A DNA stretch of 64,000 nt, taken from the NCBI GenBank assembly GCA_020428315.1, contig JAGQNA010000001.1:1-64000 (forward strand), in the 5' to 3' direction. This document shows, in pieces, positions 33,111 through 52,170 of the stretch (within the stretch, counting starts at the first letter, position 1; each line of letters starts with the position of its first letter). The stretch is from Candidatus Saccharimonadota bacterium (GTDB taxonomy: Bacteria; Patescibacteriota; Saccharimonadia; Saccharimonadales; Saccharimonadaceae). Under the pieces are notes generated by a model. It was given only the letters and a program-made list of their open reading frames with translations. It did not search any database and had not been told where the DNA came from. The translations under genes were made by a program, and so were the position numbers.

Positions 33111-34208
33111 ATGGAAATAGAAGTACTCCAAAATACATTTGCAAAAGCACTAGTCAACGCCAGCCGTTTAGCAAACCCAAAAGCTGACTTATCTACTATC
33201 GGTAATATTCTAATAAAAACCAATAAATCCGATATTGTCATAGAGTCAACAAACTTAGAAATTGCCAGTGTACAAAAAATCCCTGCAAAAATAATTAAAC
33301 AAGGATCTATAACTGCACCTGGAAAGTTAATTGCTGATTATATCAACAACCTACCTAATACAAAAATCACTTTAACAGTAAAAAATAACATAATCACTAT
33401 TAAATCAGACAAAAACACTTCAAATATACATGGTTACAGTGACGAAGATTACCCAGAAATACCACTTATTGATGACAATTATACCGCAAAACTTAATATT
33501 GATAAAAACAAATTAATCCAAGCAATTTCGCAAATAACACCGTGCGCCAGCCAAGACATTACTAGGCAGATATTAACAGGGGTCTTTATACATACAGTAG
33601 ATAAAGAAATCTATATGACAGCAACTGATGGATATAGGCTAGCAGAGAGAAAGAATATAGTTAAAAGTAATGATGAAATCGAAGCAATTATACCAGTATC
33701 AACCCTACAAGAGTTGGCATATAATATAAACGACGACATAAAAGAAGTCGAAATTACCCTCAATGATACACAAATACAATTTACAATAAACGAAAATATC
33801 ATCACAAGTAAACTTATAGATGGTACTTATCCAAACTATAAGCAATTAATTCCAAACAGTAACGATAAAAGTGCGGTAGTTAATCGTGATGAACTAATAA
33901 AGGCAGTGAAAATCTCAAGATTATTTACAAGAGACAGTGGTGGCGCAATAAACCTTTGTTTGGAAAATAACAAACTGATTATAAAATCGATCACTAGTGA
34001 ACTTGGAGAAAGTACTTCAGAAATTCCTGTCGAAGCACTTAGTAAAACTATAAACGTTACATTAAACTCAAAATACCTTAGTGATGCACTAAATACACTA
34101 AACACTACAAATATTAATATTGAATCATCTGGTAAATTGACACCCTTTATATTAAAACCAGAAAATGATAACACATATCAGTATATTATTATGCCGATTA
34201 AAAGCTAA
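33111..34208 (+). CDS. dnaN: DNA polymerase III beta sliding clamp
   Basis: 365 residues, the family length, with the three beta-clamp domains. Typical features include TDGYRLAERK in domain 2 and the C-terminal end YIIMPIK (usual form: LIMPMR-L). It tethers polymerase to DNA. No recF or gyrB follows; the next gene is convergent and overlaps its end by 4 nt. Confidence 0.97.
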   Translation: MEIEVLQNTFAKALVNASRLANPKADLSTIGNILIKTNKSDIVIESTNLEIASVQKIPAKIIKQGSITAPGKLIADYINNLPNTKITLTVKNNIITIKSDKNTSNIHGYSDEDYPEIPLIDDNYTAKLNIDKNKLIQAISQITPCASQDITRQILTGVFIHTVDKEIYMTATDGYRLAERKNIVKSNDEIEAIIPVSTLQELAYNINDDIKEVEITLNDTQIQFTINENIITSKLIDGTYPNYKQLIPNSNDKSAVVNRDELIKAVKISRLFTRDSGGAINLCLENNKLIIKSITSELGESTSEIPVEALSKTINVTLNSKYLSDALNTLNTTNINIESSGKLTPFILKPENDNTYQYIIMPIKS

Positions 34209-34717: not shown

Positions 34718-35171
34718 TATCTACCTGTATACTGTTAAAGTAATCATCGAGTAATTCATACGGAATACCCAATCCATCTGAGATATTCTGGTAAGTAAAA
34801 TACTTCTCAGGGTTAATAATAAAATTAATTTGTTCACTAGACTTGAATTTATTAGCGATTATCGGCTTAATAATATATAAACCCTCATCAATTTTAATCT
34901 CCACATTTACAATATACCACCAGCTACCATATCTTTTAATGGATTTAATCGATGATATATTGTGAATTTTCTTATCTTCCACAAGGTTACTGTTAACCTC
35001 ATTTAACCTATTAAGAAATTCAGTATTACTCGGAGTTGGTATTGCTTTAATGTGATTATATGGTGGGTTAAAGATACTTGATAACCACAAACCTAATAAT
35101 ATAGGAATTATTAATAAAACTACAACTAGTAAAATATTATTTTTCGTTGAAAAGTGTAACTCACTCAACAT
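34704..35171 (-). CDS. Hypothetical single-TM protein, VirB8/TcpC-like position
   Basis: 155 residues from ATG 35171 (MLSELHFSTK), 1 nt after the stop of the EEP-lysozyme protein; a longer frame would overlap that gene. One membrane helix lies at ~13-35, followed by an extracellular alpha/beta domain of ~120 residues. A small domain after one helix is the VirB8/TcpC topology and would be expected in a type IV secretion locus, but no diagnostic residues are seen, so the family is uncertain. Confidence 0.65.
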   Translation of the reverse strand: MLSELHFSTKNNILLVVVLLIIPILLGLWLSSIFNPPYNHIKAIPTPSNTEFLNRLNEVNSNLVEDKKIHNISSIKSIKRYGSWWYIVNVEIKIDEGLYIIKPIIANKFKSSEQINFIINPEKYFTYQNISDGLGIPYELLDDYFNSIQVDNESV

Positions 35172-35172
35172 A

Positions 35173-37233
35173 CTAGAAACCGGACCAGCCTCTTGTGCTT
35201 GAGGCGTTATTAATTTGTTTTGACTTCCAGCCCATATCATTAGGGTCGATCCAACCTTGGTAGTCTAAGTTCCAACCTTTACCTTCCAGGAAGTTAGCAT
35301 TTCGAATGAAGCCATCATTTAATACCTTATTATTACCAAGATATATTGCTACGTGGTTTCTTTTATAGAAAACCAAAGCGCCTTTTTTAATTTTTTTATT
35401 CGGGTGACCGATACTGTCTTTGTTAGCCTCCCAGACATCTATAGCCCTATTATAACCAGAACCAGTATTGCTTCCCATCCAAACTCTAGCACTAATAGCT
35501 AGACACCACCCATCACCCTCTAGCGAGCCTTTATATTCTTGGTTTACTTTCTTAGCATTACTTAATATGGTTTGTAGATTTTTAACCTCGCCGGTATCCG
35601 TAAAGCTACCTTCGCCGGTACCTATGTCCTGATCTATACTACTACTAGAACTATCATTACATGATACAGTTAATGCCTCATCGACACCCATTGAAGTTGG
35701 TGTTTTTCCACCAAACTTTTCTATTAAATCATTAGCACCCTTCAATCTACTACTAAATGCTTTTACTCCAGCACCTTCTATGTGTCTTTCAAAATATAGC
35801 ATAGCTTTATTCAAATCGGTTATCTTCCTATATTCATTAGGGTTGAACTTCCCTGACGTAATCGGTGGTTTACCTTGCATATTTCCCCATACCATATGAA
35901 GTTGTGCTCCCAGAGAGGATATATCACCAGACGCACCCGAATCCTTATATGTATTAAACACTTTTGGGTCTGCTGGTGTCCACTGGATTAAACCCCAGCC
36001 GGCGGTTATACCTTTAGGGTTGGCCGTACGTTCTCCATACTTTCTTGAACTTGATGTATTATTTTGAACATTCAAAGGGTCTACTCCAGACTCGTGTATC
36101 ATATTGCCAACTATGCCAGCTGCACCAATATCTGAAAAATTCCTATCACCAGTTCTGAAATAGTAAAAAGCACGCTCTTGATTATCTTCGCCAGGTAAAT
36201 TGTTACTATCTCCTTGACTAGACTTACAGTTACCGGTCAATGAGATAGTAGCGATGATGGTGGGGTGATCTGATCCATTCTTGCTTTTTCCACTTTTTTC
36301 GCTTTGTATTGCCTTGTACTCAGTTGCGGTCACCGCTTGTCCTTTAGGCATGTATATATGGTCTATGCCTACTTTGTTTTTAGATTTACATTTACCGTTA
36401 ATATTATTTACTGCATCATATACATTTTGAATGGATTCGCCACCACTTAATATACAGTAACCATCCGAATCACTATTAAAATCACCGGTTAAAAATAAAG
36501 GTGTTTTTTCGCTAGACAGCTCACTAAAAATCTTTTTGTAGTTGTTTGCATTGTCTATCCGACTCTGTTTATTTAGGGCCGTCGAGCCGGGTCTTACATT
36601 TGCGGGGTCGTGTATGCTTGCTACATAAAACATATTACCACCACTATCCCTTAGCTTTACTATGATTAAATGATCAGTATCTTCACCGTTGTCATACTTA
36701 AGGTTTCGTTGTTCTCCACTAACAAAAGTGAATTTATTTTTATTCCAAATAACTATATTTGGACTAAAGCCAGGGTGTCTTGTTTTTGTGGGCCACCGAT
36801 CATATACGATATCGCCACTAGCTTTACCTTCAATTTCAACTAATAGATTATGCTGTTCTGGTCTAACTTCTTGAAGCCCAGCAACTTGTACTTGATTATC
36901 TTTTAGTGTTTTAAGTGATTTAGGTAATCTCTCACGCCATTTACTCTCAAAAGCGTCGTTACCTGTATGTAAGATATTGAAACTTGCAATATTGAATGCT
37001 TCTCCACATTCACCCGTGGTGGTAGGTTGAGCACAGGAATTACTAGAATTTCCGGTATACATATTGATTGTATTTTTTTGTAAAAACCCCCTATCTATAT
37101 AAGCAAATACCTGTAAGGGTTGTAGTGATAAAACCAATGATAAAATAAAAACTAATAGCAAGTACAAAATATCATAAGAGATAGCTATCGATCGGCTTTT
37201 TGCCCGAAGTTGATATAGAGAATTATGAATCAT
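35173..37233 (-). CDS. Secreted EEP nuclease-like / lysozyme-like / CHAP-like protein
   Basis: 686 residues from ATG 37233, overlapping the upstream gene by 11 nt. A signal/anchor helix lies at ~18-42. An EEP (DNase I/exonuclease III-fold) domain at ~83-325 shows QEVR, GDFNSD, a GIDH and the terminal SDHP, i.e. the Glu, Asp/Asn and His of the active site. A phage-tail-lysozyme-like domain at ~345-480 has GIVGNMIHESGVDP and GWGLIQWT (catalytic-type Glu). A CHAP/NlpC-like amidase-peptidase domain at ~560-680 has GWCLAIS (Cys) and HVAIYLG (His). Lysozyme-CHAP proteins are the standard wall-opening subunit of Gram-positive T4SS; the added nuclease domain is not standard. Confidence 0.82.
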   Translation of the reverse strand: MIHNSLYQLRAKSRSIAISYDILYLLLVFILSLVLSLQPLQVFAYIDRGFLQKNTINMYTGNSSNSCAQPTTTGECGEAFNIASFNILHTGNDAFESKWRERLPKSLKTLKDNQVQVAGLQEVRPEQHNLLVEIEGKASGDIVYDRWPTKTRHPGFSPNIVIWNKNKFTFVSGEQRNLKYDNGEDTDHLIIVKLRDSGGNMFYVASIHDPANVRPGSTALNKQSRIDNANNYKKIFSELSSEKTPLFLTGDFNSDSDGYCILSGGESIQNVYDAVNNINGKCKSKNKVGIDHIYMPKGQAVTATEYKAIQSEKSGKSKNGSDHPTIIATISLTGNCKSSQGDSNNLPGEDNQERAFYYFRTGDRNFSDIGAAGIVGNMIHESGVDPLNVQNNTSSSRKYGERTANPKGITAGWGLIQWTPADPKVFNTYKDSGASGDISSLGAQLHMVWGNMQGKPPITSGKFNPNEYRKITDLNKAMLYFERHIEGAGVKAFSSRLKGANDLIEKFGGKTPTSMGVDEALTVSCNDSSSSSIDQDIGTGEGSFTDTGEVKNLQTILSNAKKVNQEYKGSLEGDGWCLAISARVWMGSNTGSGYNRAIDVWEANKDSIGHPNKKIKKGALVFYKRNHVAIYLGNNKVLNDGFIRNANFLEGKGWNLDYQGWIDPNDMGWKSKQINNASSTRGWSGF

Positions 37234-40200
37234 TGTATGCCCTAAATAAGTCTTTACCAATTGGCCTAAAATGACTCATAATCGAACAGCCACTTCTACT
37301 ACATGGTTGTCGTATTCTATCAGTAGAAGCATCAATATGTAGGTGATCTACATTAATCCCGGGATATTTTCTAACACTAGCTAGCTTTCCAACAGGATCG
37401 CCCGCTGAAATCTTGTCGCCGATTGATACACTAGTATTATCCATATGTGTATAGTATATTACAAGACCGGCCTTCTTATTGTAGATACTAACCCCCTTAC
37501 CCAAGCTACCGCTAGATAAATTTGTTACCGTACCATCAGCAAAGGCTTTAACGACAGTACCAGCTGGGGCACTGATGTCGTAAGCAAGGTATGGATGACC
37601 AGCTTTACTAGTATCGTTATTTGAAAATATACCACTATTTTTAACAACAGACTTGCCACCGGCTAATGGGAATGAAATGTTCCCAAATGAACTAGACTCA
37701 CTAATCGCACCAGTACTGGTACTTTCTCCGCCAGGTGTAGAAAGTGTTACATAAGACGGACCATGATCTGTTCCGCCCCTCAAATCATTTTCTATCCTAC
37801 CCCAATTACTGGCAGATAATCCATTGTTTGTTGACACATAGACCTGATCAATAGGGATTCTTCCACCTCTACAGCCGGTAGCTGATTTATTTTCTGCCAA
37901 ATCTCTAGCATATTTAAAGCCACTATTTACGAGATCACAAGACCTAACATTTCGATTAAAGTCGCCAGTAATAATAATGTTACCACTAGCCGACTTACTC
38001 TTTGCCCAGTTTTTTATCATCGTAACATTATGGCTTTTTATCGCAGTTGTTCCACCGTGACCACTATTTGGATTATGAATAGATGTAACAAAGAACGACT
38101 GGCCGGCACTGGTTTTTAGCTCCACCCAAGGGAACGGATACTTACTACCACCCTTACTTCCGTCGTTACTGTATATATCTGGAATATTTCCGCTACTTGC
38201 CATGGTAAACTTCGCAGGATTCCAGATAATCGCTCTACCTTGCGCCTTTGGTACATTGGCTGGGAAAGACTGGTAACCGGTAGCTTGCTTAATGCCGGCT
38301 AGAGATGCTTGTGACGTTTCTTGGGTGCCGATAATATCTAGCGGTTGGCCATTAAAGCCGTTGGTGATATTTTTTGACTGAATTGGTAGCTTTTTACTAA
38401 GTTTCATACATGAATTAGATATTTCATGACATAGGTTATAACTAGCAATATTAAAGGTCGCTGCATCGCCGGTGGGTGGTTGTTGCGGCGCAGACTCGCT
38501 TTCGAATTCTTCATCCTCACCATTTAGCATTGCCTCGGCTTGTAGGTCAGCACTAAATATATATCCGGCTGCAATTTTTTGCTCAGCTTCTGGATCGTTG
38601 GTTCTTTTGCTGTTTTTAATCGCATTAACACAATTATTATCAACCACACCATCGACTGTACATTGTTTATTGATTTGACTGTCAGATAATCCCCCACCTC
38701 TGCCTTTTATGGAACCCAGGGTGCATCCATCTAATGACTCAATAGACCCTTCGCCACACTCTTCGAGTTGGGTTGCAAGCTCGCTATCTTCAGGTATTAC
38801 CTCTGTGGTGTCTGTTGCCTCTTTATCTATATTTTTCGAACCAACAAGTTTCATTGCTCTATCTGGCGACATATTGACATATTCAGACGGCATACCTGTA
38901 TACGGTGTACAGGCGGCATTTAAGGCTACTTTACTCGTACCGAAATTACAATCTTCACTGTAATCATCAAATTTACTATCGGCTAAAGCTGTCGGTTGTT
39001 TAGTGATCGAAGAGATGTTCACAGATGAAGCTAATATATGAGCTGGCCCTTGCCTAGTGATACTACCTAGCTTTGAGATGATACTACCGAGAAAAGTAAA
39101 CTGACTTGATGTGTCGAACGGGCTTTTTGTTGCCTGAACTTCAGCGATATAGTCTGCTTTGTACTTATCACTCTCAAGCTGTTGTTCTGCTAATTGATCT
39201 TTTGATAATGCCACCTCACTTGATTTTAGACCGAGGTCGGAGAAGAAGGCCATAATCGCCATCCCTAGATAGTTGCCTAATTTTACTCCTTGCTCAGCAT
39301 TGTAAGATATTAGGTCAACTAATGCTCCACGAATCTTATCATTAGATAAAATTGCACCAACAGCTGCACCTATTACGCCAGCAGCAAGCCCCAGAGCTGT
39401 CTCTGCAGCTTTTAGTTTTATCGCTGTCCAAAGTACAGCCTTGGCTGCACCGTAGACAGCAGCACCCGGTCCGGTTGCAAGACTAGCAGCTGAAATCGCA
39501 GCCGATGCCATCATTGCCTGGGGGCTATATATAATATCACAAGAGTTTTTTGTGACCCCTGAAGCAATGGTTGATCCTTTAACCACCGAGCTGCCCATGA
39601 AAGCATAAGCGGCCACCCACGCGCCAAGCTCGACATGGCCAGTATTTATCCCAACGGCTTTTTGTAGAATTGATGAATCTAATGCCGATAAATTATCCTC
39701 GTCAGTTGCTGTAAGCGCGCTACTCGCTTCACTTGCTTGTTCGGCTGTTGCTTCTCCAGCCTGTATCTTTGATGCTGGAGATAAAATAATGTCACTAGCT
39801 GCTAATATAGCTCGACCGAGTATAAAACCCCGTACTGCCGATGCCACAAGTTTGGGTCCATTGATAGCTGCACAGCTAACCCCACCGACTGCTAGTATTG
39901 GATCACCCAGTCTTCCTATTTTTTTTAGCTGTCGGCTAAACATTTTCTCTATATGTTTTGTTAGTTTTTCCTTGATGACACTTTTCTTTGTGTCATCTTC
40001 TTGGTTTGTTACTAATTTTTTGATTTTCTCATTAAATGCTGATTTACCAGAGTGTTCATCTCCCTTAATTACCCCACCGTCTTTATTGATGCCCCGGACT
40101 TTAAAAAATTTCTTCGATATTAACTTACCACGAAAAGCGCTCCATCTAACATTTACCGCTTTATGAAAGTCTCCACGGATTTTTGGATTCTTGACTATTT

Positions 40201-40846
40201 CATCGACTAACTGGTTTGGTTTGATTGTCCTAGTCTTTCCGCTGCCATCATCTACAGTAAATCCAGTAATTGGCTTATCGGCAAAGCCTTTTCCGCTACT
40301 GAAGTCACCGCCGCCAATTGGTTTTATGCCAGCCTTATCTAGCTCTATTAGTAGCTTATTAGGTATACGGTCGAACTTTTCTATTACCGTATTTGGTTTT
40401 CCGGTGATACGTTGGTTTGTTTTAGCTAATTTTTTATCAATTAGTTTTAAAACTCGCCTTTCCATGTACGACACCCGAGAGTTATTTGTAAAAAAGGCAT
40501 TTTCCGAGAAAAACATAAGCGGATTCATGAAAAAAGCCGATAAAGCGCCAATTGGCCCAAGGATGAGAGTTAATACAAATACGGCGCCACTTTGAGCAAA
40601 CGCCTTTTTGAAGGAACCTTGTTTTTTGCCAGTGTCAGTCTTGTCGTGCCATAGGTCGTCAGATGAGTTCTCTGCATCGGCTACTTTGGCCGATACCGGG
40701 TGGTCATCAAGACCGTCAGCCGATCGGTTATATCCTGGCAATGTATCATGACTACCAGCTTGATTTTCATAATTTTCTATAGGATTATCAAAACGCTTAG
40801 CCTGACTCTCGGCAATTTCATCTTCTCGGGGTAGTGTGTCTGACAT
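37223..40846 (-). CDS. Multi-pass membrane protein with EEP nuclease-like and M23 peptidase domains
   Basis: 1207 residues. The acidic cytoplasmic N-terminus (~1-85) is followed by a helix (~90-120), further hydrophobic Ala/Gly-rich helices (~355-375, ~455-530) and a Ser/Glu-rich linker. An EEP domain at ~799-1035 has TQET, TGDFNRN, PIDQ and GTDHGPS, keeping the active-site residues. The M23 (LytM) peptidase domain at ~1060-1200 has HPYLAYD (His and Asp ligands) and HLHID. M23 enzymes cut peptidoglycan cross-bridges. It lies between virB4 and the EEP-lysozyme gene, so it belongs to the secretion machine. The EEP domain resembles that of the next gene, suggesting duplication. Confidence 0.82.
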   Translation of the reverse strand: MSDTLPREDEIAESQAKRFDNPIENYENQAGSHDTLPGYNRSADGLDDHPVSAKVADAENSSDDLWHDKTDTGKKQGSFKKAFAQSGAVFVLTLILGPIGALSAFFMNPLMFFSENAFFTNNSRVSYMERRVLKLIDKKLAKTNQRITGKPNTVIEKFDRIPNKLLIELDKAGIKPIGGGDFSSGKGFADKPITGFTVDDGSGKTRTIKPNQLVDEIVKNPKIRGDFHKAVNVRWSAFRGKLISKKFFKVRGINKDGGVIKGDEHSGKSAFNEKIKKLVTNQEDDTKKSVIKEKLTKHIEKMFSRQLKKIGRLGDPILAVGGVSCAAINGPKLVASAVRGFILGRAILAASDIILSPASKIQAGEATAEQASEASSALTATDEDNLSALDSSILQKAVGINTGHVELGAWVAAYAFMGSSVVKGSTIASGVTKNSCDIIYSPQAMMASAAISAASLATGPGAAVYGAAKAVLWTAIKLKAAETALGLAAGVIGAAVGAILSNDKIRGALVDLISYNAEQGVKLGNYLGMAIMAFFSDLGLKSSEVALSKDQLAEQQLESDKYKADYIAEVQATKSPFDTSSQFTFLGSIISKLGSITRQGPAHILASSVNISSITKQPTALADSKFDDYSEDCNFGTSKVALNAACTPYTGMPSEYVNMSPDRAMKLVGSKNIDKEATDTTEVIPEDSELATQLEECGEGSIESLDGCTLGSIKGRGGGLSDSQINKQCTVDGVVDNNCVNAIKNSKRTNDPEAEQKIAAGYIFSADLQAEAMLNGEDEEFESESAPQQPPTGDAATFNIASYNLCHEISNSCMKLSKKLPIQSKNITNGFNGQPLDIIGTQETSQASLAGIKQATGYQSFPANVPKAQGRAIIWNPAKFTMASSGNIPDIYSNDGSKGGSKYPFPWVELKTSAGQSFFVTSIHNPNSGHGGTTAIKSHNVTMIKNWAKSKSASGNIIITGDFNRNVRSCDLVNSGFKYARDLAENKSATGCRGGRIPIDQVYVSTNNGLSASNWGRIENDLRGGTDHGPSYVTLSTPGGESTSTGAISESSSFGNISFPLAGGKSVVKNSGIFSNNDTSKAGHPYLAYDISAPAGTVVKAFADGTVTNLSSGSLGKGVSIYNKKAGLVIYYTHMDNTSVSIGDKISAGDPVGKLASVRKYPGINVDHLHIDASTDRIRQPCSRSGCSIMSHFRPIGKDLFRAYNDS

Positions 40847-40870: not shown

Positions 40871-42763
40871 CTACCGGGGGTCGGTATACCCACTGTTGAT
40901 TACTGGTTGACTAGGGGTTGGATTTTGTGGTTGTTGTGGACTGGGTTGCTGTGGGGTGAGCACAGGTGTCGATGAAACTAGCTGCTGCTCAGTTTCACTT
41001 GGTACTATTTGAATATGAACATGATTTTGACCAGCAAAAAACAGACCTTGGCCAATCGGAAAATTAGCTAGTCGTTTACGCTCTTCTTCGGTAAGCTTGA
41101 ATACATCAGCTAGTATGTCAACCGCACTCGAAGACTGTTTTAGTAGTAGTTGCATTGATGAGTTAGCAACGATTGCCCGGCCCATTTTGCTACCCATAAA
41201 ATCTTCGACATCTTGAGTGATAGTAGTTAATCCAAGTGCGTATTTTCGAGCACGCTTAGCTAGGCTGAATAAAAAATTTGCCGAATCATCGTATTTCATT
41301 AACTGCCAGGCTTCATCGACTATCAACATTCGCTTTTTTTGTTGAGTTCGTGTGATATTCCAGATGTGTGACAAGACAATATACATGGCAATTGGCCGAA
41401 GTTCATCTTCAAGGTCGCGGATATTGAACACTACCATATTATTATTGATGTCAATGTTGCTTTGCTGACTGAAGATACCCGCAAACGTACCACTGGTAAA
41501 CTTTCGAAGTCGCTGAGCAAGCTGCGGCCCAGTGCCACCCATGTGGAGTAAGGTGTCGTATAAGTCAGAAATTGTTGGCGGTGGTGACTGATGAGTTAAC
41601 GGATCACTAGTTATTCCCACTCGAGCATAGGTGTCGATTAATCCCTGATCAAGGTCAGCCTCCTCGGCTGGAGTCAATGCAGCCATTACTTGCCCGTTGG
41701 CGGCAACTTGATTTCCACCAAGCATTAGTCTAAATAGACCGTGAAGGGTTACTAGATTAGCCCGAAGAGCGTCGTCTTCTTCCTCGGTATCAATAACCTT
41801 TGGTAGATCAAATGGATTGATACGAGTGTCGCTATTTAAGCTAAGCCGAATATAGCTTCCACCAACAGCATCGGCCAGTTTTTGGTATTCGTTTTCTGGG
41901 TCGATAATTAAGATATCTGCACCGGTCATCATGGTGCGTAGCGCCTCAAGCTTTACGGTGAATGACTTACCAGCACCAGACTTCGCAAAAACCACCATGT
42001 TGGCGTTTTCAAGCTTATAGCGATCAAAAATAACTAGGCCGTTATTGTGCATATTTATTCCGTATAAGATACCGCTATTATCAGTTAGATCAGCACTGGT
42101 GAACGGAAAGCTGGTTGAAATTGCACCAGTGTTCATATTGCGGCGTATCTGGAGTTGGTCAGACATCTGTGGAACGGTGCAATTCAAACCTTGTTCTTGC
42201 TGACTACTGGCTACCTTGCTGAACACTAATTCTTGACCAAATATCGTTTCGATCTTGTGCTGCACAAAACTGAGCTCGTCTAGACTGTCGCCATAAATTG
42301 TGATGTATAGTCCGTAACGGAAAAATCGCTCAGCTCCAACCTGTAGCTGATCGCGTAGTTCTTCGGCGTCCCGAATTGCTGCTTCTAGCCCTGGGTCACG
42401 GGTTTTTCCTTTTTCGGCGTTCAGAGCAAAGTCAGCCTCTAGCTGAGTAACTTTTTTACGCAAATTTTTCATAACAACTTGCGTGTCAACCGGATAGACG
42501 AACATGCTTATATCAAGTACTTCATCGATATTTATAATCGAACTAAGCCAGCCAGTGTAAATTTCGTTTGGGTAACCATAGACATAAAGTGTTCTACCGT
42601 ACTTTGTACCTAGTCGAAAGTAGCTAGAGTGAATCTCGATACTACTTGGTGCAATTAGGTCACGTAGGGTTGATATACCCTTCAGGAAGGCCTGCTCAAC
42701 CTCCTGTTGCTCGCGCGCACGTTGCTGAGCAGCAATATCGACTGGACTTAGCTTTTTAGCCAT
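40871..42763 (-). CDS. VirB4/TraC-like secretion ATPase
   Basis: 630 residues. The N-terminal accessory region (~1-245) contacts the channel in relatives. The RecA-like motor follows with Walker A AKSGAGKSFT (~257-266), Walker B RMLIVDEAWQLM (~475) and the C-terminal TQDVEDFM pattern. A Pro/Gln-rich tail ends it. It powers substrate transfer and pilus assembly. Its start overlaps the upstream VirB4-N-like gene by 8 nt. No separate VirD4 coupling protein appears in the window, so this ATPase may be the only motor here or another may lie elsewhere. Confidence 0.93.
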   Translation of the reverse strand: MAKKLSPVDIAAQQRAREQQEVEQAFLKGISTLRDLIAPSSIEIHSSYFRLGTKYGRTLYVYGYPNEIYTGWLSSIINIDEVLDISMFVYPVDTQVVMKNLRKKVTQLEADFALNAEKGKTRDPGLEAAIRDAEELRDQLQVGAERFFRYGLYITIYGDSLDELSFVQHKIETIFGQELVFSKVASSQQEQGLNCTVPQMSDQLQIRRNMNTGAISTSFPFTSADLTDNSGILYGINMHNNGLVIFDRYKLENANMVVFAKSGAGKSFTVKLEALRTMMTGADILIIDPENEYQKLADAVGGSYIRLSLNSDTRINPFDLPKVIDTEEEDDALRANLVTLHGLFRLMLGGNQVAANGQVMAALTPAEEADLDQGLIDTYARVGITSDPLTHQSPPPTISDLYDTLLHMGGTGPQLAQRLRKFTSGTFAGIFSQQSNIDINNNMVVFNIRDLEDELRPIAMYIVLSHIWNITRTQQKKRMLIVDEAWQLMKYDDSANFLFSLAKRARKYALGLTTITQDVEDFMGSKMGRAIVANSSMQLLLKQSSSAVDILADVFKLTEEERKRLANFPIGQGLFFAGQNHVHIQIVPSETEQQLVSSTPVLTPQQPSPQQPQNPTPSQPVINSGYTDPR

Positions 42764-43649
42764 TTACTGCTCCTTGTGACGTACTATTCGGTTGGGGCGT
42801 GTCTGCTTTTTTGATGTATATTGAAGTGTTTTGCTGGAAGTTAGTCAGTGGTTCGCGTACGGAGGTATCTGGGTTGTAGACATTATAGTACAGTTCACCA
42901 AGTTCTTTAGTGCTAAGTTGGAAGCTATTAACTCCCATTTGAAACAATCCACTGGTAACCAAATCGACACGGTTTTTGATCTCATCTTTCGCTTTTTGAT
43001 AAGAAACTTCATCGATTTGTAGCACTCCCATTGATTGTTTTGCGAATAGTTTCGCGAAAAAGCCTTTCGTCTGGTTTTTGATATCAGCTACATTGCCTAG
43101 TGGAAAGTATGGTAGAGCGATATAGAAACTTTTATCCATAATGTTGGCTTCTTGACTGAGAACATCAATAAAATCAATATAATCGTCCATTAAGACGTTC
43201 AATAGCATATTGTCTTGGTTTTTTCGTAGATTAGTCAGCTTTTCAATGTACGGCCCGATATCAACCCGCTGTGAACGAACTAAAATTTGGATTGGAAAAT
43301 TAAGTGAATTCAAGAAATTCTGATAACTGTATTCCACACCTTCTCTTTCGCGACTACTCATGAGGTCAAAATTGATAGACTTACACGAAATGACAGCACG
43401 AAAACTACCATCTTTCATAATTACCATGTTGTCACGTATTTCAGATATCAGTAGAGTGTTTTGAGTACTATTCGGGTTTTGAGGAGGAGGCGGAGTTTTT
43501 TTATCTAGTGGTTGTTTAGCGTTTGGATCTTGAGTCGGAGCTGGTTGGGGTTGTCCAGGTGGTTGACTAGCAACAGGAGCAGTTGCCACAACTGGTTGCT
43601 GCGGTACATACTGAGGTAGCTGTTGTGGTCCTGGCTGTTCAGGCGGCAA
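42756..43649 (-). CDS. VirB4/TraC N-terminal-like protein, Pro/Gln-rich
   Basis: 297 residues from a TTG at 43649, supported by AAAAGGAG ~7 nt upstream. A ~65-residue Pro/Gln-rich N-terminus is followed by a domain like the VirB4/TraC N-terminus (DGSFRAVISCKSINFDLMSS ... LMDDYIDFIDVLSQEANIM), but no ATPase half. It reads as a stand-alone partner of the full VirB4 encoded next. This separate form is seen beside PrgI-like genes in CPR genomes (from memory, not checked). Confidence 0.7.
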   Translation of the reverse strand: MPPEQPGPQQLPQYVPQQPVVATAPVASQPPGQPQPAPTQDPNAKQPLDKKTPPPPQNPNSTQNTLLISEIRDNMVIMKDGSFRAVISCKSINFDLMSSREREGVEYSYQNFLNSLNFPIQILVRSQRVDIGPYIEKLTNLRKNQDNMLLNVLMDDYIDFIDVLSQEANIMDKSFYIALPYFPLGNVADIKNQTKGFFAKLFAKQSMGVLQIDEVSYQKAKDEIKNRVDLVTSGLFQMGVNSFQLSTKELGELYYNVYNPDTSVREPLTNFQQNTSIYIKKADTPQPNSTSQGAVNG

Positions 43650-43683: not shown

Positions 43684-44664
43684 TTAGTGAAGCGACACGA
43701 GGACTTCGTCTTCCGGAAGACCCTCTTTTTCGTGTATTCGTTTTGCTTCATGTGCAATTGTCTCCACCGAAAGTTCAGTGTTATTTGCAAGTTCTATTAT
43801 ATCAGGCGAGGGCTGTATGTTGCTAGTGGTTTGTGGAGTTTGAACAGTTGGTGGTTGTGGTTGGACATTTAGTGGCTGAATAACCGATTGATGCATGTTT
43901 GGATATGGTGTCAAATTGACATGGGGGTCGATTGATGGCTCTGGAGGTATGTTTGGTAGCTGAGCTACTTGCTGTGGAGCTAATACTGGCTGGCTGATAG
44001 CTGGTGTTTGTGGAGCTTTCACTTGAGCTGGTTGTTGTGCCTGGACGGGCTGAACGGTCGGTTGAGGTTGTCGGATCTTTGCTAGTAACGCTTCGCGCTG
44101 TTTACTAGCTGAAAGCTGTAAGCCGACTTCGATTTGTCGATAGGCTTGTGTTGAGGTATCGAGGATATCTTGGGCCTGCTGAGCTTCACTATAGATAGAT
44201 GGATTGACCGAATTTTCCTGGATCGCTGCCTTGCCTACGCCTCGAATTGCCCAACCGCGACTATCAACTACCTCTGCAAGATAGGCCAAGCGTTTTTCGG
44301 CTTCGTCTTGTGTTAAGTCCTTTGTGAGATGTTCTTCTGTTTTGTGTGGTGCCATGATCTTCACTAGGGTTTCTTGTCCGTCTGGATCCCATAGGCGCTT
44401 TCGAGGCCGAATGAAATAAAACTGAATCATTGCGGCAAGATATGTTTCCATCGGTTGCTCTTTGCGGAGTGGTAAGGCCAATGCCCCAAACAGCAAGATA
44501 ATTGGTAATGGTAAGATGGCTAGGCCAACAAAGATTTTAGCGAGTAGCCAGGCAATTGTAATCGCCCCAGCAACAATTATGAGATAAATAAACTGACGAA
44601 AACTAAACGGACCGAGTAGTTTATCGTCTGCTTCAACATCTTGAGGGACTTTATAGGATGCCAT
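43684..44664 (-). CDS. PrgI-family membrane protein (VirB3-like)
   Basis: 326 residues. The start MASYKVPQDVEADDKLLGPFS and two closely spaced helices (~25-70) with the end FYFIRPRKRLWDPDG are the PrgI pattern; PrgI is the VirB3-like subunit next to VirB4. A long Pro/Gln-rich cytoplasmic tail (~190-300) is unusual for this family. TATACT (44671-44676, minus) ends 6 nt before the ATG, suggesting a leaderless transcript and a separate promoter for the part of the locus from PrgI downward. Confidence 0.85.
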   Translation of the reverse strand: MASYKVPQDVEADDKLLGPFSFRQFIYLIIVAGAITIAWLLAKIFVGLAILPLPIILLFGALALPLRKEQPMETYLAAMIQFYFIRPRKRLWDPDGQETLVKIMAPHKTEEHLTKDLTQDEAEKRLAYLAEVVDSRGWAIRGVGKAAIQENSVNPSIYSEAQQAQDILDTSTQAYRQIEVGLQLSASKQREALLAKIRQPQPTVQPVQAQQPAQVKAPQTPAISQPVLAPQQVAQLPNIPPEPSIDPHVNLTPYPNMHQSVIQPLNVQPQPPTVQTPQTTSNIQPSPDIIELANNTELSVETIAHEAKRIHEKEGLPEDEVLVSLH

Positions 44665-44690: not shown

Positions 44691-47501
44691 TTATAGTGGG
44701 TTTTGTCCCGACGCAATTTTACCTAATACTTCAGCGCCCGCAGCTTTGGCTCCAGCCATAACCTCACCATTCTTTATAATTCGTTTAGCTCGTTTCTGAC
44801 CGAGAGTACCACCATGTTCTTTCAATGCCGCTGCAGACTGGCTTGCAACCTCAGCATCTGTGAGCGTAGCAGCATTTAGTTTATCGAGTGTCCCTTTATC
44901 ATCACCAGCTGCCCACTGAAATACTCGAGCATCTTTACTGCGGTAGGTCCCAGCATTTGCAAGAACGTGTTTTTTGATGTCGCCTTGAAGTTTGGGGCTA
45001 AGGTCTTTCTCATTAGCGCTTAGAGATTCCTGGATAGCTGCTACTCCGTTAGTTTGGCCTTCTAGGGCTTGCATAGCTGCTCGAACCTCCTGACTGTTGC
45101 CAGCTTTTATAGCTTGATTCAGTCTCTCCTGTAAGACCATTGTAGGATTTTTTCCTGATTCAATCGCTTGCTTGGTCATCAATGCAGATATGTGTCCAGC
45201 TTCTTCGGCATCTCTGCTCTGGACGATAGCGTCGGCTTCAGCCTTATCCCTATCTGACGCTTTTCCATCGTTTAAAATATGGCGAGCTACACCTAATTCT
45301 TGAGCTCTTGTGGTGTCAGTTTCCATCTTACTTATTTTGTGTTTTCTCCGAGCCCTATACCCACCAGTAAAACGCCCCAGTTTGCCGATGGCACCGTTTT
45401 TTTCATTGGCTGCCATCTTGGCTTCTAGACTTTCTGACCGCCTTTTGGCTCGATCTTTGGTTTGTCTACCCGCTGCGCTCATCGACCGATCAAGTCCACC
45501 GCTTAATTTAGAACCAATTGCCCCTAGGCCGGCCATCGAGCTCTTTAGAAGTGTAGGAATTGCAAACAAAGGTACTGCCATAATACCTAGTGCGACTAGT
45601 TTGAGGTAGGTAGTATCGTCGATAATTGCTTTTCCGTTATCGATGTATCCAGTAACTGGGGTGTCACCAGCAGAAGCGTTATTGATTATCCGTGAAGCTA
45701 GAGTGCTAGCTCCAAAAACGATACCAATTATTGGAAATACTAACAGAAGTGTATAGAACATCTTCCACCACTTTTTAAACCAACTCTCAGTGTTTGGAAG
45801 CAAGTAGGCAACAAAAGCCAAGGGTGATATAACAACAAGTAATATAAGAACAGCCTTCCTAGCTAATAGAATTACTAGTGCTACCATTACAGCCAATAGA
45901 GCCGCTGTACCGATTGTCATTAAGAGTAGTAGTGCCGCGATTAGGGCTGTACCGGCAATTAATATCGTTGCAGTAACTTCTTTCCATCCCGTCGTATTGG
46001 TATTCTCTCCACTTGTAGTGGCGATACCATCGAAGAACTGGTAGATACTTGAGCCAACGATATTGCTAATGTCAACTGCCAGCTGACAGAGTATAAACGA
46101 TACGTTCACAAGGACGGCTGCGATGATTAGTCGCGGGAGCATCTTTTTGATACCATAATTTGAAAAACCACCACCAGTAATTTGTGAGTAGATTATGATT
46201 AAGAAGGCGATAACAAATAAGGCGTTAGCAATGTCCCGAAAACTACGCCAGGCAACATCGGTATCTTTGTCCTGAAGCAGCTTTGGCTCAACGATAAGCA
46301 GTTTAGATATTAGTCCAAACGCAGTTTCGTTGAGATCTGCCATAAAGTTTAAAACTGGACAAACAATCCAGCCAACACCCTCTACGGCACAAGATGTAGT
46401 TTCCTTAGTACCTCCGTCATCGCCATTATCACCTTCATCATTGATAGCATTAACTACATCCCCTGTATCTACATCAAGGTTTGCCTTTCTCCACTTTTTA
46501 TACGCATCTGCGTATTTTACAGTCCATCCAGACATATCCTCACATTTCGCACTTGCAAAACTACTATTGGTATCACCAGGATACCAAACACCCATAATAC
46601 TGCTATCTTGGTTCCTGTTGGTATCCCATGCGTAATCTCTTTCAACCTTGCCACCTATATAGAAACCTTGCCGTTCATCTATTTCTCCGTCGTCTTCCTT
46701 GACAAAACTAACTTTAACCTGCTTGTTACCGGCGTAATCTGTCGAAGTGCTAAGCATATTATCGATATTGCCATCTGGTGCGCCACAGAAGTTTATTAAT
46801 GAGTTTTTACCAATAAGATATTTTAGGGCATCGCTTGAATAGCCCTTATCGCCTGCTAGTTTATTGTCCTCTAGTTTTGCCCATGGTCGTAGTTTATGAC
46901 CCCCATTTTCGAGTGCCCAGGTTAGGGCTGGCTGAAAGACATCTGTGGCGCCACCGTCAAAGAATACCCCGTGCTGAGTAGCTTCACAGTTATTCCGTCC
47001 ATTGCCGCCGTCCTTATCGGGTTTAATTCGCTTGTCTTCGGCACCTTTCATATTCGGTGACCGGTTCATGGTGCATATAAGGTCTAAGACTGAAGAGAAG
47101 CCTAAGCTAGTGGCTCCTCTAACCCATATACTTCCGTCACTGCAATTTATTTTACCGTCAGTTTCAATTCCCTTTGACGGCACACCTGTTTCCTTGTTAT
47201 CTTCTAAGCTAGGTGCCATATAGCCAAGCGCGGTACTGGCGTACCCACTATCAATAAGTTTACCATCGTTTATGTCCTTTACGGAGATGGTTCGGTTACC
47301 TGTGATGCCATTACCGAAGGCTGGGAAATGTAAACAAGCATGCATGGCCCGATAGAAAAACCATCGCTCTAGTTGAACATTTGGATTTGGGTCAGCGCCA
47401 ACCTCTGCATTCGCGACATATGGCAGGAGTAGCTGTACAAATACACTGAAAGTGAATACGGCGATTGTAAAGATTAATTGAACTTTTTTTATCTTTAACA
47501 T
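44691..47501 (-). CDS. VirB6/TrbL-like membrane protein with charged tail
   Basis: 936 residues. A signal helix (~8-32) precedes an extracellular cysteine-containing domain (~35-370). A polytopic VirB6-like core (~370-655) carries VEGVGWIVCPV, then Gly/Ala/Ile-rich helices and LPNTESWFKKWWKMFYTLLLVFP. A highly charged Lys/Glu/Ala tail follows to 936. The core aligns by eye with that of 48433-52170, so the two are paralogues with different extracellular and cytoplasmic ends. VirB6 forms part of the inner channel. TATTAT ends 7 nt before the ATG. Confidence 0.85.
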   Translation of the reverse strand: MLKIKKVQLIFTIAVFTFSVFVQLLLPYVANAEVGADPNPNVQLERWFFYRAMHACLHFPAFGNGITGNRTISVKDINDGKLIDSGYASTALGYMAPSLEDNKETGVPSKGIETDGKINCSDGSIWVRGATSLGFSSVLDLICTMNRSPNMKGAEDKRIKPDKDGGNGRNNCEATQHGVFFDGGATDVFQPALTWALENGGHKLRPWAKLEDNKLAGDKGYSSDALKYLIGKNSLINFCGAPDGNIDNMLSTSTDYAGNKQVKVSFVKEDDGEIDERQGFYIGGKVERDYAWDTNRNQDSSIMGVWYPGDTNSSFASAKCEDMSGWTVKYADAYKKWRKANLDVDTGDVVNAINDEGDNGDDGGTKETTSCAVEGVGWIVCPVLNFMADLNETAFGLISKLLIVEPKLLQDKDTDVAWRSFRDIANALFVIAFLIIIYSQITGGGFSNYGIKKMLPRLIIAAVLVNVSFILCQLAVDISNIVGSSIYQFFDGIATTSGENTNTTGWKEVTATILIAGTALIAALLLLMTIGTAALLAVMVALVILLARKAVLILLVVISPLAFVAYLLPNTESWFKKWWKMFYTLLLVFPIIGIVFGASTLASRIINNASAGDTPVTGYIDNGKAIIDDTTYLKLVALGIMAVPLFAIPTLLKSSMAGLGAIGSKLSGGLDRSMSAAGRQTKDRAKRRSESLEAKMAANEKNGAIGKLGRFTGGYRARRKHKISKMETDTTRAQELGVARHILNDGKASDRDKAEADAIVQSRDAEEAGHISALMTKQAIESGKNPTMVLQERLNQAIKAGNSQEVRAAMQALEGQTNGVAAIQESLSANEKDLSPKLQGDIKKHVLANAGTYRSKDARVFQWAAGDDKGTLDKLNAATLTDAEVASQSAAALKEHGGTLGQKRAKRIIKNGEVMAGAKAAGAEVLGKIASGQNPL

Positions 47502-48432: not shown

Positions 48433-51400
48433 TTATAGCTTAAAGTTTGGCTGGTCGGATACTCGTTTACCATCTGTAACATTTTCAGAAGTATAGTCGG
48501 TATCTTCGTTGTAGACTGATGATGGGCTAGCACCAGGGTGATCTTGCTGAGGCATCCAGACTTGGAATTTCTGACCAGTATGATCCTTCTTGGTAATATA
48601 CTTGAATTTGGTCTCAAGCCTTTCCTGTACGGCAACAGATGAAGTATCGGTGCCGTTTGGTAGTTCAAGGTAATTCATAGTAGCACTCATCACACGCCTG
48701 ATACGATCTTCAAGGTTTGGATTTTGCTGTGCGGTACGGATTTGAGCAACCATTTTCTCGCGTAGAGTAGGGTTGCTAAAGTGTTTATCTCGGAAACCTT
48801 GCTGGCGTAGTAGGCGTATCCATGACAACCAGTCATCAATCTTAGCATCGGCAAAGCCTTGGGCGCTCATTTTGCCCCCGCCCCACTCTTCGATCATAGC
48901 ATCGGCAGTTGTATGGTATCTTTGTCCAGTCTGAGCCATCCCCTGGTGCGTACCTGAGACAATAGCACTTTTTTGGTGGCCTTTTTGGTAGCCATACATA
49001 TTCATTTGTTGTGCATCAGAATGGTCCTCTGCTTCAGCTGCTGTCAGATAATCAGTACCATCTGCCATCATGATACGATCAACTTCTTCACCCGTGTCAG
49101 GGCTAATAACCTTTTCTTTCATAACGACACCCCACTCATCACGCTTTGGAATATAGAATTTACCTACCGTATGGTCGAACACCATACCATGTTTGCGAGC
49201 GTTTTTGTCTAGGGCATCGATAACTGCTGCTAAGTTACCCTTTTTAGTAATGACTTGAATATCTGCTGCGTAACGTTCTTCGGGGGTAGCTTTTCGTCCA
49301 AGAATTGGCAGAATAAAGCCGTCATCATCTCTTAGCTGCTGGAGGTCACTTAGGATAGTTTCAGATAGGGTTGATTCAGAGTTTTCAGTATTCTCCATTA
49401 ATCGTGCTGATTTTTCTTTACGTGAACGACCGAGTAGACGACCTTCACCGTATTCGCTAGATTCACCTTTTACATTGATACCGGCCCCGCGATGGCGGAG
49501 TTTTTTACTGATTTCTTCGGTGATAACTCCGTCTGTATCATCTTCGGCAGTGCCACGAATAATATTCGTATAGGTGTCACTTTCGTGGTCTTGGGTGCTT
49601 TTGATAGATTCTGTAGCCAGTTGCTTGCTAAGACTTTCTCCGCTGATTTGTTCAGCGATAGCTCCAAGTGTTGTATTTTCGTGAGAAATGCCAGCCGTAA
49701 TATTTAACTCTGGATTTGTAAGACGATCGGTTTCATCTTTCATAAAGGTTGCAACCGCTTTGCCTCGTTCGGAATCGTCTAGGGCTTTCTGACCGATATA
49801 GTTTACCTTTGCTAAGAAATCTTTAGTATCTTCGGTAGCTCGCTCAGCCTGTTTCGTAGCCAGGGTCTCAAGTAGTCTGGTTTCGCGGGCTTGTTCGTGC
49901 ATTGGGGCATTCTCGTCAAGCATCGCTTTTTGCCAGAAGGCTTCATTTTGCTGTTCGATGATGTTTTCACTTGCTTTTAGGCGGGCTTTGGCGATAGCTG
50001 AACTTTCACGGATAGCAAGAATCTCATCAGCGATGGCTAAAGTGCCTTGTGAAGTACCGCTACCAAAGGCCAAACTACCCTTTAGCTGCATATCGGCCAT
50101 AAGCTGGTTGACTTGACCCTCGGCTTTGAGGGCTAGCTTGTCAGCCTTGAAGCCTTTGACATACATATCTTGAGGTTGGCCACTATTTTGAACAAGCTTA
50201 AAGTATTGTTCTTCGCCACCTTTCTGAATAATACTGTCGGCAGTTTCAGCGCGCTTGCTGTCAATGACGGCTTTGGTCTTAGTCTGTCGCATAAAAGCAT
50301 CATAGCTACCGTCGGGCGCAGAAACTAATCGCTCTTTATACTTGCGTTCACCTTCTTTATCGATAGCATTTTTTAGGGTATCAGCTTCCTCGTGAGCGTA
50401 ATGGCTTTCATGAATTCGATGCCCCAGCTCTGCTAAGCGACCATCACGGCGCCGGCGTCCGTCCATTTTATTGTCGGGACTAATTTGTTGACCATAGGCA
50501 TGCTCAAGGAACCGTTTTTTACCGTAGCGTTCTGACTCCTCTTGGTATGTAGCCGCCAGTGATTTCTCCTTATATAGTTTCTGGCCTGCTCTACTATGTG
50601 TTAGGTACTGAGCCTGCAACTGTTGACTATAGGCTTCAGTTCGTAGCTTCCGAGCTTCACCTCGGTTCATGAGTTCAGCTGCTTTCTTACTGACTTTACG
50701 AGTGGTTCGAGAGCGAGCATTTCGAAAACGGCCACTGGTAACATTTGGGTTCATTCGCTTCGCCATGGCTTTAGATCGCTTTTCGGCTGCACCAGCTTTA
50801 GCCCAGTTCTGTGTTCGGTCAAACACACCTTTACTTCTATCATTTGCCATGCCAGCGATAGTGCCGAGCATACCGCTACTTAGCTTAATAAGTATTGGTG
50901 TAATAAATAATGGTACAACTTGTACTAATAAACCGAGCAAGGCAACTGGAATATTTGGAGCAGTTTGCATAATCATCAATCCTGCTACCTGAGAAGCACT
51001 GAAAACAACCGCAAATGCTGGGTAAAAAACTAGCAATGTAATAAAGAATTTTTTCCAGCGATTAAACCAATCCTCGGTGTTTGGCAGTAGGTACATCACA
51101 AAAGCAATCGGTGAAATTACGATTAATAGCATAATTAGAGCCTGTCGTGCAGCTAATATGACTATTGCTACAAAGACGGCAAAAATAGCTGGAATGGCAG
51201 CTGCTAGGAGCATTAGTGAGGCGGCCCCAATACCGCCACCGATTAGGGCGATTGTGCCGATTGCTCCACCGACGACTAGTGTGCCACCACCGAGGATCGC
51301 TAGGGTTATTGATTTCCAATTGATAGTTTGTTCGGCATTTGGATTTGAGTTGGCAAGGTTGCTATAAAAACTAGTGAATAAATCATAGACGGCGGCACCA

Positions 51401-52170
51401 ATCACATTTGACAGGTCAACTGCTAGTGCACAGATCCAGAACGATATATTTACAAGTACAGCGGCAATCACAATACGTGGCATAATTTTTTTAATAGTGT
51501 AGTTGCTCATGACGGCTCCAGTAATTTGGGCGTAGATGAGCACTAAGAAACCGATAACGAACATCGCATTGGCGATATTGCGTACGATATTCCACATGTC
51601 GTAAATTACATTACCTTTATCGGCGAGTGAGTTGAAGGTAAAGAAGCCCTCTATCAGGCCATAGATAAAATCCATACCCTCAGCGATGTAGGTTGAAACT
51701 GGACAAACTATCCAGCCGATTGCTTCGATACCACAACTGGTTTCAATCGGGTCTGGTTCACTTCCAAAACTACCACTATCAATTGTTATAGTCTCGGGCG
51801 GTGATAAGCCGGTAAATGTGTCGGAGCGTGCATCATATTTTGCAGTCTGAAAAGTTGCTTGAGCGGCAGTTTTTAGATCAGTCGCTTTTGGAAAGCTAAT
51901 TAATTTTGCATCCTCACCGTCGGTGTAGTGAAAGTATATTGTACCCTCACTCAAGGTTGAGCGATCATTTTGTACAGCTGTAACTGGGCCGCTGTAGGTA
52001 ATATCATCGTAAACTAGACTTTCACCAGACCACTTAGCATCAAGTGCCTGTACAGGTGCAGAACCTAGTACAAACCAAGCAAAACAAGACACCAAAATGA
52101 TTGTGGCGTACGTAAGGAATGACCGCAACGATACTCTACCGTGCGGAGGTATACTATAGCCCTTCCACAT
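48433..52170 (-). CDS. VirB6-like membrane protein with ~800-residue charged tail
   Basis: 1245 residues. A signal helix (~18-42) and a short extracellular part lead to the VirB6-like core (~140-435) with IEAIGWIVCPVSTY and LPNTEDWFNRWKKFFITLLVF, matching its paralogue at 44691-47501. The C-terminal ~800 residues are Lys/Glu/Gln/Arg-rich and largely helical, without a recognised domain. This exceeds ordinary VirB6 proteins (~300-350) several-fold. The tail may be cytoplasmic scaffold or a secreted/exposed segment. An AAGGAT precedes the ATG at minimal distance, so the start is not certain. It is the first gene of the minus strand, divergent from the pilin cluster. Confidence 0.82.
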   Translation of the reverse strand: MWKGYSIPPHGRVSLRSFLTYATIILVSCFAWFVLGSAPVQALDAKWSGESLVYDDITYSGPVTAVQNDRSTLSEGTIYFHYTDGEDAKLISFPKATDLKTAAQATFQTAKYDARSDTFTGLSPPETITIDSGSFGSEPDPIETSCGIEAIGWIVCPVSTYIAEGMDFIYGLIEGFFTFNSLADKGNVIYDMWNIVRNIANAMFVIGFLVLIYAQITGAVMSNYTIKKIMPRIVIAAVLVNISFWICALAVDLSNVIGAAVYDLFTSFYSNLANSNPNAEQTINWKSITLAILGGGTLVVGGAIGTIALIGGGIGAASLMLLAAAIPAIFAVFVAIVILAARQALIMLLIVISPIAFVMYLLPNTEDWFNRWKKFFITLLVFYPAFAVVFSASQVAGLMIMQTAPNIPVALLGLLVQVVPLFITPILIKLSSGMLGTIAGMANDRSKGVFDRTQNWAKAGAAEKRSKAMAKRMNPNVTSGRFRNARSRTTRKVSKKAAELMNRGEARKLRTEAYSQQLQAQYLTHSRAGQKLYKEKSLAATYQEESERYGKKRFLEHAYGQQISPDNKMDGRRRRDGRLAELGHRIHESHYAHEEADTLKNAIDKEGERKYKERLVSAPDGSYDAFMRQTKTKAVIDSKRAETADSIIQKGGEEQYFKLVQNSGQPQDMYVKGFKADKLALKAEGQVNQLMADMQLKGSLAFGSGTSQGTLAIADEILAIRESSAIAKARLKASENIIEQQNEAFWQKAMLDENAPMHEQARETRLLETLATKQAERATEDTKDFLAKVNYIGQKALDDSERGKAVATFMKDETDRLTNPELNITAGISHENTTLGAIAEQISGESLSKQLATESIKSTQDHESDTYTNIIRGTAEDDTDGVITEEISKKLRHRGAGINVKGESSEYGEGRLLGRSRKEKSARLMENTENSESTLSETILSDLQQLRDDDGFILPILGRKATPEERYAADIQVITKKGNLAAVIDALDKNARKHGMVFDHTVGKFYIPKRDEWGVVMKEKVISPDTGEEVDRIMMADGTDYLTAAEAEDHSDAQQMNMYGYQKGHQKSAIVSGTHQGMAQTGQRYHTTADAMIEEWGGGKMSAQGFADAKIDDWLSWIRLLRQQGFRDKHFSNPTLREKMVAQIRTAQQNPNLEDRIRRVMSATMNYLELPNGTDTSSVAVQERLETKFKYITKKDHTGQKFQVWMPQQDHPGASPSSVYNEDTDYTSENVTDGKRVSDQPNFKL

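Follow-up and report, generated by a model that had tools for sequence, protein, structure and literature searches.

The VirB1-like wall hydrolases of Gram-positive (MPF-FATA) type IV secretion systems (T4SS), PrgK (pCF10), TraG (pIP501) and Orf14 (Tn916), are exported or anchored proteins whose genes lie next to virB4 in the T4SS locus, and they combine a muramidase or SLT domain with a CHAP domain (and also LytM in PrgK). An earlier reading of the DNA analyzed here, made from the sequence only, considered a lysozyme-CHAP architecture normal for Gram-positive T4SS, in agreement with the literature (PMC12857230). An origin-proximal T4SS near dnaN and dnaA has been described for the Patescibacteria (PMC12102498), and in Southlakia epibionticum ML1 the genes for a peptidase and a lysozyme that follow virB4 are reported to be essential for epibiotic growth (Wang et al. 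2023, cited in PMC12102498). The role of the essential Saccharibacterial T4SS has been described as completely unknown (PMC11665869). The stretch of 64,000 nucleotides analyzed here (the window; Candidatus Saccharimonadota bacterium, contig JAGQNA010000001.1, positions 1 to 64,000) encodes a T4SS in which two neighboring wall-hydrolase proteins, of 686 and 1207 residues, each carry an additional domain of the endonuclease/exonuclease/phosphatase (EEP) superfamily. Based on association and kinship, the EEP would be a secreted phosphoesterase whose targets are phosphorylated glycopolymers in the wall or on the surface of the host (probability about 0.5).

The open reading frames of the two proteins overlap by 11 bases, both on the minus strand, and contain the following features (residue numbers refer to the respective protein; HMM, hidden Markov model):

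35173..37233, minus strand: 686-residue T4SS-locus lysozyme protein with signal/anchor, EEP1, Phage_lysozyme2 and NlpC/CHAP, in this order (open reading frame, Pfam, HMM survey)
37102..37170, minus strand: hydrophobic signal peptide or anchor, residues about 22-44 (sequence LLLVFILSLVLSLQPLQVFA)
36229..37005, minus strand: EEP1 domain, residues 77-335, with every active-site residue and two conserved Cys (alignment, profile, AlphaFold2)
35713..36174, minus strand: lysozyme domain PF18013, residues 354-507 (Pfam)
35176..35613, minus strand: papain-like domain of the NlpC/P60-CHAP type, residues 541-686 (Pfam, HMM survey)
37223..40846, minus strand: 1207-residue T4SS membrane protein (the chassis) with C-terminal EEP2 and M23 (open reading frame, Pfam, HMM survey)
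40526..40582, minus strand: transmembrane segment 1 of the chassis, residues 89-107 (hydropathy scan)
38750..39841, minus strand: conserved chassis core with hydrophobic segments, residues 336-699 (HMM survey, locus comparison)
37730..38461, minus strand: EEP2 domain, residues 796-1039, with complete active-site residues (profile, alignment)
37286..37603, minus strand: M23/LytM-type domain, residues 1082-1187 (Pfam)

The lysozyme protein has 686 residues when counted from an ATG (an upstream TTG at 37260 would give 695), and a hydropathy scan reveals one hydrophobic segment (residues 22-40, score 2.44). The Phage_lysozyme2 match (PF18013) has an E value of 4.8e-19, the catalytic-type Glu of this domain (E390 in the 695-residue numbering) is invariant across 65 relatives, and the Cys and His of the papain-like domain (C586 and H636, same numbering) are near invariant among relatives. 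The sequence-only reading had named EEP, lysozyme and CHAP as the three domains of this protein; EEP and lysozyme stand, and the C-terminal domain is matched by Pfam as NLPC_P60 (3.7e-5) instead. Both NLPC_P60 and CHAP are papain-like amidase/endopeptidase domains. With its lysozyme and papain-like domains, its signal or anchor segment and its T4SS gene neighbors, the protein fits a predicted VirB1-like T4SS wall hydrolase. A contig scan with the entire 686-residue protein as the query gave no match.

Hydropathy, profile and Pfam matches bear out the description of the 1207-residue protein as a membrane part followed by EEP and M23. A soluble N-terminal part precedes the transmembrane segment at residues 89-107 and a long hydrophobic region extends up to about residue 700, and the core at residues 336-699 is common to Saccharimonadales proteins without an EEP. 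The M23 match (E 1e-12) begins past the first His in the Pfam alignment; the HLH of the zinc site is kept and the first His is displaced (H1084-x5-D1090 vs. the canonical HxxxD). Because the canonical HxxxD spacing is absent, M23 activity appears less certain than the activities of the lysozyme and papain-like domains. The HxxxD spacing is also lost, and HLH kept, in the M23 domains of three EEP-bearing chassis relatives (L020, L066 and L070; labels with L and G denote loci and genomes), and in such proteins either a different residue would provide the first zinc ligand or the activity would have been lost.

Single-sequence Pfam support for the EEP domains (PF03372) is marginal (21.6-25.4 bits, cut-off 24.5). 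These scores are unlikely to reflect chance because EEP1 aligns with EEP2 along about 270 residues (E 6e-14), a profile built from six Saccharibacterial EEPs (A1) recovers family members at E 1e-85 to 5e-103, and EEP1 can be modeled as an EEP fold. The AlphaFold2 model of EEP1, built with relatives from the window and genome contigs, reached a predicted local distance difference test score (pLDDT) of 83.8 and a predicted template modeling score (pTM) of 0.87, its Foldseek matches are EEP structures (E about 1e-14, template modeling score 0.65-0.69), and the fold of EEP1 is predicted with confidence. The model of EEP2 together with M23 is weaker (pLDDT 73.3, pTM 0.60) and has the same EEP neighbors in Foldseek. 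One further EEP is present in the genome to which the window belongs (816 kb, 98% complete, 69 contigs): a 265-residue frame on contig C22 matches the entire Pfam model (E 2.7e-31) and, based on score and frame length, is probably an ordinary ExoIII-type repair enzyme.

The N, E, H, GDFN, the D of "IDH/IDQ", and DH are present in EEP1 and EEP2 and are invariant in the six-sequence alignment. The earlier claim that both domains keep Glu, GDFN and DH and look catalytic is thereby upheld at the level of the alignment, and the structure prediction proposed as a check gives an EEP fold, confidently for EEP1 and more weakly for EEP2 with M23. Because the same residues are retained in almost all of 38 related domains despite low overall identity, EEP catalysis is, as judged from these alignments, under selection; the fold match and the conservation together imply that the catalytic residues of EEP1 and EEP2 lie close in space. 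Cysteine counts are mostly even, with two near-invariant cysteines, a pattern that suits an exported, disulphide-bonded domain. This conservation also bears on the idea that the EEP is mainly a binding module or structural spacer, or acts on the epibiont's own envelope during T4SS assembly. The muramidase is the one active domain of PrgK (pCF10), LytM and CHAP being regulatory (PMC12857230); tandem EEP copies could be spacers, and the M23 zinc ligand spacing is displaced. However, the active-site residues are conserved in nearly all copies, including the tandem ones, and the EEP is lineage-specific whereas T4SS assembly is needed everywhere, which makes this explanation quite unlikely.

The substrate is suggested by what relatives carry in the place of the EEP. 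A total of 60 further T4SS loci were selected by VirB4 similarity, irrespective of EEP content. The slot between signal peptide and lysozyme domain holds an EEP (the window; G302, which is L069; G412, which is L137), a GH43 module (G185 and G309; residues 76-355 in L066), a GH3 module (G008 and G035; residues 79-371 in L028 and 320-598 in L025), a GDSL module (G045; residues 83-247 in L031) or nothing. The GH43 module is closest to endo-alpha-1,5-arabinanases (E 3e-16; the NCBIfam AbnA match is below the cut-off) and the GH3 module to beta-N-acetylhexosaminidases, including Mycobacterium tuberculosis LpqI (E 3e-30). Phage_lysozyme2 was found in 65 out of 65 lysozyme proteins, accompanied by C39_2, M23, Amidase_3, CHAP, M15 or NlpC as partner peptidase modules and by GH3 (3 proteins), GH43 (2) or GDSL (4) as accessory modules. 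The C-termini of 70 chassis proteins carry M23 (33), EEP (15), VanY (7) or, singly, Amidase_2 or NlpC. Apart from the EEP, the C-terminal modules of these 65 lysozyme and 70 chassis proteins are nearly all peptidoglycan hydrolases (M23, VanY/M15, Amidase_2/3, CHAP, C39_2). By association, the EEP is the sole phosphoesterase in a module set that is otherwise aimed at wall polymers. Because relatives hold GH43, GH3 or GDSL in the EEP slot, the EEP would most likely be directed at phosphorylated host glycopolymers, and host wall polymers are a more likely target than host DNA. Separately, the arabinanase-like GH43 of the T4SS lysozyme proteins in L066 and L067 hints at hosts with wall arabinan (or at plant arabinan).

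The nearest solved relatives in a profile search are the Bacteroides EEP proteins 3g6s, 3mpr and 4c1r (E 1e-26 to 1e-29; overall range 1e-19 to 1e-29), which share a group with Enterococcus faecalis 3l1w and uncharacterized proteins. In the ranking they are followed by 3l1w, then by nocturnin, CCR4-type proteins, PDE12 and Tdp2, and last by ExoIII, which reaches only 1e-5, and DNase I, which like CdtB scores 0.03-0.4. Nucleases are not the closest sequence kin among the solved structures searched, the Bacteroides group being best by >10 orders of magnitude. The same search bears on an EEP of the phospholipase C or phosphoinositide phosphatase type, which would attack host membrane lipids or phosphatidylinositol mannosides after wall opening. 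The EEP superfamily includes sphingomyelinases and inositol phosphatases, and the sphingomyelin phosphodiesterase 8j2f appears in the search (E 0.007), but it falls short of the Bacteroides group by about 20 orders of magnitude and the inositol phosphatase type is missing from the profile hit list; a lipid substrate is very unlikely. A phosphatase role had been the alternative in the sequence-only reading, with phosphoinositide and sphingomyelin enzymes as its examples; the phosphatase part comes nearer to the likely reading, in which the substrate would be a wall or surface glycopolymer instead.

Several observations weigh against a glycopolymer substrate. Fold and active site are common to EEP enzymes whose substrates differ widely, and in the Foldseek ranking Tdp2 and nocturnin stand level with the Bacteroides proteins. 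Structure 4c1r (BT3783) is called a mannosyl-6-phosphatase, a name that comes from the PDB entry. Among the six exemplar EEPs, one matches the NCBIfam model MnuA (1.5e-4) and another ExeM/NucH (4e-3), whereas EEP1 of the window matches neither. Related EEPs are fused to other phosphoesterase domains, a Tyr-phosphatase (L073) and a type I phosphodiesterase (Nocardioides); this counts in favor of the glycopolymer reading, but such companions would fit nucleotide salvage too. Two potential clues were uninformative: the fold ranking, since Foldseek does not separate EEP types, and charge as an indicator of nucleic-acid binding, with isoelectric points of the EEP domains from 4.6 to 10.0.

The Tyr-phosphatase fusion is a 930-residue protein (L073:6282-9071, G155) with Tyr-phosphatase (PF13350), EEP, Big_7 and choice-of-anchor domains; G155 has six EEP matches, one of which is broken by frame changes (L075). 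The secreted Nocardioides proteins L093:9551-11716 and L104:9761-11743 combine an EEP of the same kind with a type I phosphodiesterase/nucleotide pyrophosphatase domain, and in many cases another EEP gene lies adjacent.

The sequence-only reading had preferred a nuclease role, in which the two proteins open the host wall and degrade host DNA or RNA. As a surface nuclease, the EEP would degrade nucleic acids freed by wall opening and feed a purine auxotroph, comparable to the Mycoplasma nuclease MnuA, which serves nucleotide salvage (PMC11729948). Nucleotide scavenging as such is biologically reasonable: PF00586, a marker of de novo purine synthesis, is missing from the window genome and present in 14 out of 14 control genomes, and how Saccharibacteria acquire nucleotides is an acknowledged open question; a non-competence route is needed, and the T4SS has been named as a candidate (PMC11665869). 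ComEC is present in the window genome. Two exemplar EEPs match the NCBIfam model xth in addition to the one MnuA match, and the DNA-processing Tdp2 is among the Foldseek matches; the MnuA model (NF045851) matches neither EEP1 of the window nor the full-length window proteins. Nothing found favors DNA or RNA as the substrate, and kinship and slot point elsewhere: the closest sequence relatives are not nucleases, the slot is otherwise occupied by glycan hydrolases and esterases, and the domains have no constant basic surface (a weak argument, since DNase I itself is acidic). Furthermore, the EEP occurs in only about 4% of the order genomes, although the T4SS is near-universal and purine auxotrophy general. 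Because most T4SS loci of the Saccharimonadales lack the EEP, it cannot be a general nucleotide-supply device. A nuclease role is regarded as unlikely.

This restricted distribution was established in an even sample of 295 Saccharimonadales genomes, of which 18 contain an EEP of the window kind, about 13 of them inside a chassis-sized frame; in a phylum-wide sample only 4 out of 380 genomes have an EEP match, all of them Saccharimonadales of the window's own family. On these counts, the EEP as a general T4SS component was rejected. In the sister genus g18 all ten complete chassis examined contain an EEP (G017, G308, G185, G309, G302, G156, G412, G414, G416, G417), and beyond g18 EEP chassis proteins were found in the window (g1) and in G204, G154, G240, G042, G117 and G296. 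Tandem EEP pairs are common in chassis proteins, and that of G204 has three copies and no M23. Proteins with EEP and M23, some also with NlpC, occur outside the T4SS locus as well (L021, L065, L068), which also counts in favor of the glycopolymer reading.

A maximum-likelihood tree of the EEPs (quick search, with support from the Shimodaira-Hasegawa-like approximate likelihood ratio test, SH-aLRT) contains some long branches, so that finer placements are unsure. EEP1, which is part of the lysozyme protein of the window, nests with the chassis EEPs of G156, G302 and G154 (93-99 SH-aLRT), whereas EEP2 joins G417 and G240 in another, divergent group whose support does not reach the starred level. 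A third group, which is starred, unites the EEPs in the lysozyme proteins of G302 and G412 with EEP copy three of G204. Because the lysozyme-protein EEPs fall into separate groups of this tree, the lysozyme gene acquired an EEP on at least two occasions, and EEP copies have moved between the two neighboring genes. A single common origin of all EEP-lysozyme fusions is unsupported, as EEP1 of the window stands apart from the lysozyme-protein EEPs of G302 and G412. Outside the Saccharibacteria, the nearest relatives found are secreted EEPs of Nocardioides and Marmoricola; these make up a separate, well-supported clade next to the Saccharibacterial EEPs, and no recent transfer from a host is shown. 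A phage origin of EEP1 was likewise rejected, with no match among 50,697 phage records.

Based on these observations, the glycopolymer explanation can be put as a sequence of steps. The T4SS would deploy two wall-attack proteins: an exported lysozyme/endopeptidase of the VirB1-like type, and a membrane chassis that ends in a hydrolase domain. Both would be exposed on the epibiont surface where it touches the Actinobacterial host. In the lineage of the window each of them has gained an EEP module with an intact active site that is predicted to be exported. Export is suggested by the signal and transmembrane segments and the paired cysteines, and catalysis by the conservation; contact of both proteins with the host envelope is inferred. 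The EEP would hydrolyze phosphate mono- or diesters in the host wall, either in its phosphorylated glycopolymers or in its surface glycans, stripping phosphate-containing decoration or cutting phosphodiester-linked glycopolymers, and the peptidoglycan exposed in this way could then be cut by the lysozyme, the papain-like peptidase and M23, which would let the T4SS reach the host membrane. A bolder and tentative extension is a host-matched, two-protein wall-opening cassette in which EEP (one to three copies), GH43, GH3 or GDSL modules are swapped according to Actinobacterial envelope chemistry; the EEP would then be the first T4SS-borne enzyme for wall-glycopolymer phosphate and the module would help to set host range.

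The remaining genes of the locus agree with a conserved system:

40871..42763, minus strand: VirB4 ATPase, TraG P-loop (Pfam, order survey)
42756..43649, minus strand: conserved VirB4 companion encoded immediately upstream, TrsD/VirB4-N-like judging by its position, name inferred (conserved in relatives)
43684..44664, minus strand: PrgI, VirB3-like (PF12666, E 4e-15)
44691..47501, minus strand: VirB6/TrbL-like membrane protein (weak PF04610, HMM survey)
48433..52170, minus strand: second VirB6/TrbL-like membrane protein (weak PF04610, HMM survey)
33111..34208, plus strand: dnaN, conserved neighbor that marks the origin-proximal T4SS locus (HMM survey, locus comparison)

The gene order is two VirB6-like proteins, PrgI, the VirB4 companion, VirB4, the 1207-residue protein and the 686-residue protein, followed by dnaN on the opposite strand; by this gene content and order the locus is the origin-proximal, dnaN-linked T4SS of the Saccharimonadales. 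VirB4 was found in 346 out of 368 genomes of the order. A recognizable chassis protein directly follows VirB4 in 51 out of the 60 loci, with a lysozyme protein before dnaN in nearly all of the 51. Loci L176, L177 and L178 (G189, G291 and G223) and L025 (G035) have two tandem copies of the chassis and lysozyme gene pair behind virB4. Between the lysozyme gene and dnaN the window encodes two small proteins with a single transmembrane segment (170-210 residues; 34205-34717 and 34704-35240, minus strand), and the pair of families recurs in L020, L022, L025, L026, L069, L137, L138 and L140 (E down to 1e-52). A VirB8-like component is reported as undetected in S. epibionticum (PMC12102498), and the small proteins are VirB8-like candidates because they combine a single N-terminal transmembrane segment with an outer domain of about 150 residues. 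Outside the T4SS locus, the window contains a 2002-residue open reading frame (7582-13590, plus strand), possibly a giant surface protein.

Among the known systems, the Southlakia epibionticum ML1 genes, compared by their description in PMC12102498, resemble those of the window in place and order after virB4 near dnaN and differ in that this description mentions no EEP. The view of the sequence-only reading that nuclease-fold fusions are unusual agrees with the open-licence literature, in which an EEP fusion is not described and no published mention of an EEP in a Saccharibacterial T4SS was found. Mycoplasma MnuA, the surface nuclease of a wall-less auxotrophic parasite, is a plausible functional analog, but only one of the six exemplar EEPs matches it, weakly, and EEP1 of the window does not. 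If the EEP were a nuclease after all, it would bear directly on the nucleotide supply of purine auxotrophs without competence. The Bacteroides proteins 3mpr, 3g6s and 4c1r share fold and active site with the EEPs of the window and are their nearest solved sequences; they are single-domain proteins with no wall-hydrolase fusion and no T4SS link. The described members of the PrgK, TraG and Orf14 type have no EEP, GH43, GH3 or GDSL module, unlike the Saccharimonadales proteins, and the window system divides its hydrolases between two proteins, one of them a large membrane chassis. An exchangeable slot with wall-polymer enzymes offers a concrete, testable idea of how the T4SS acts at the host surface, and the module in the slot may determine which hosts are open to an epibiont. 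Overall, the EEP next to wall hydrolases is a new variation on the VirB1-like wall hydrolases of T4SS.

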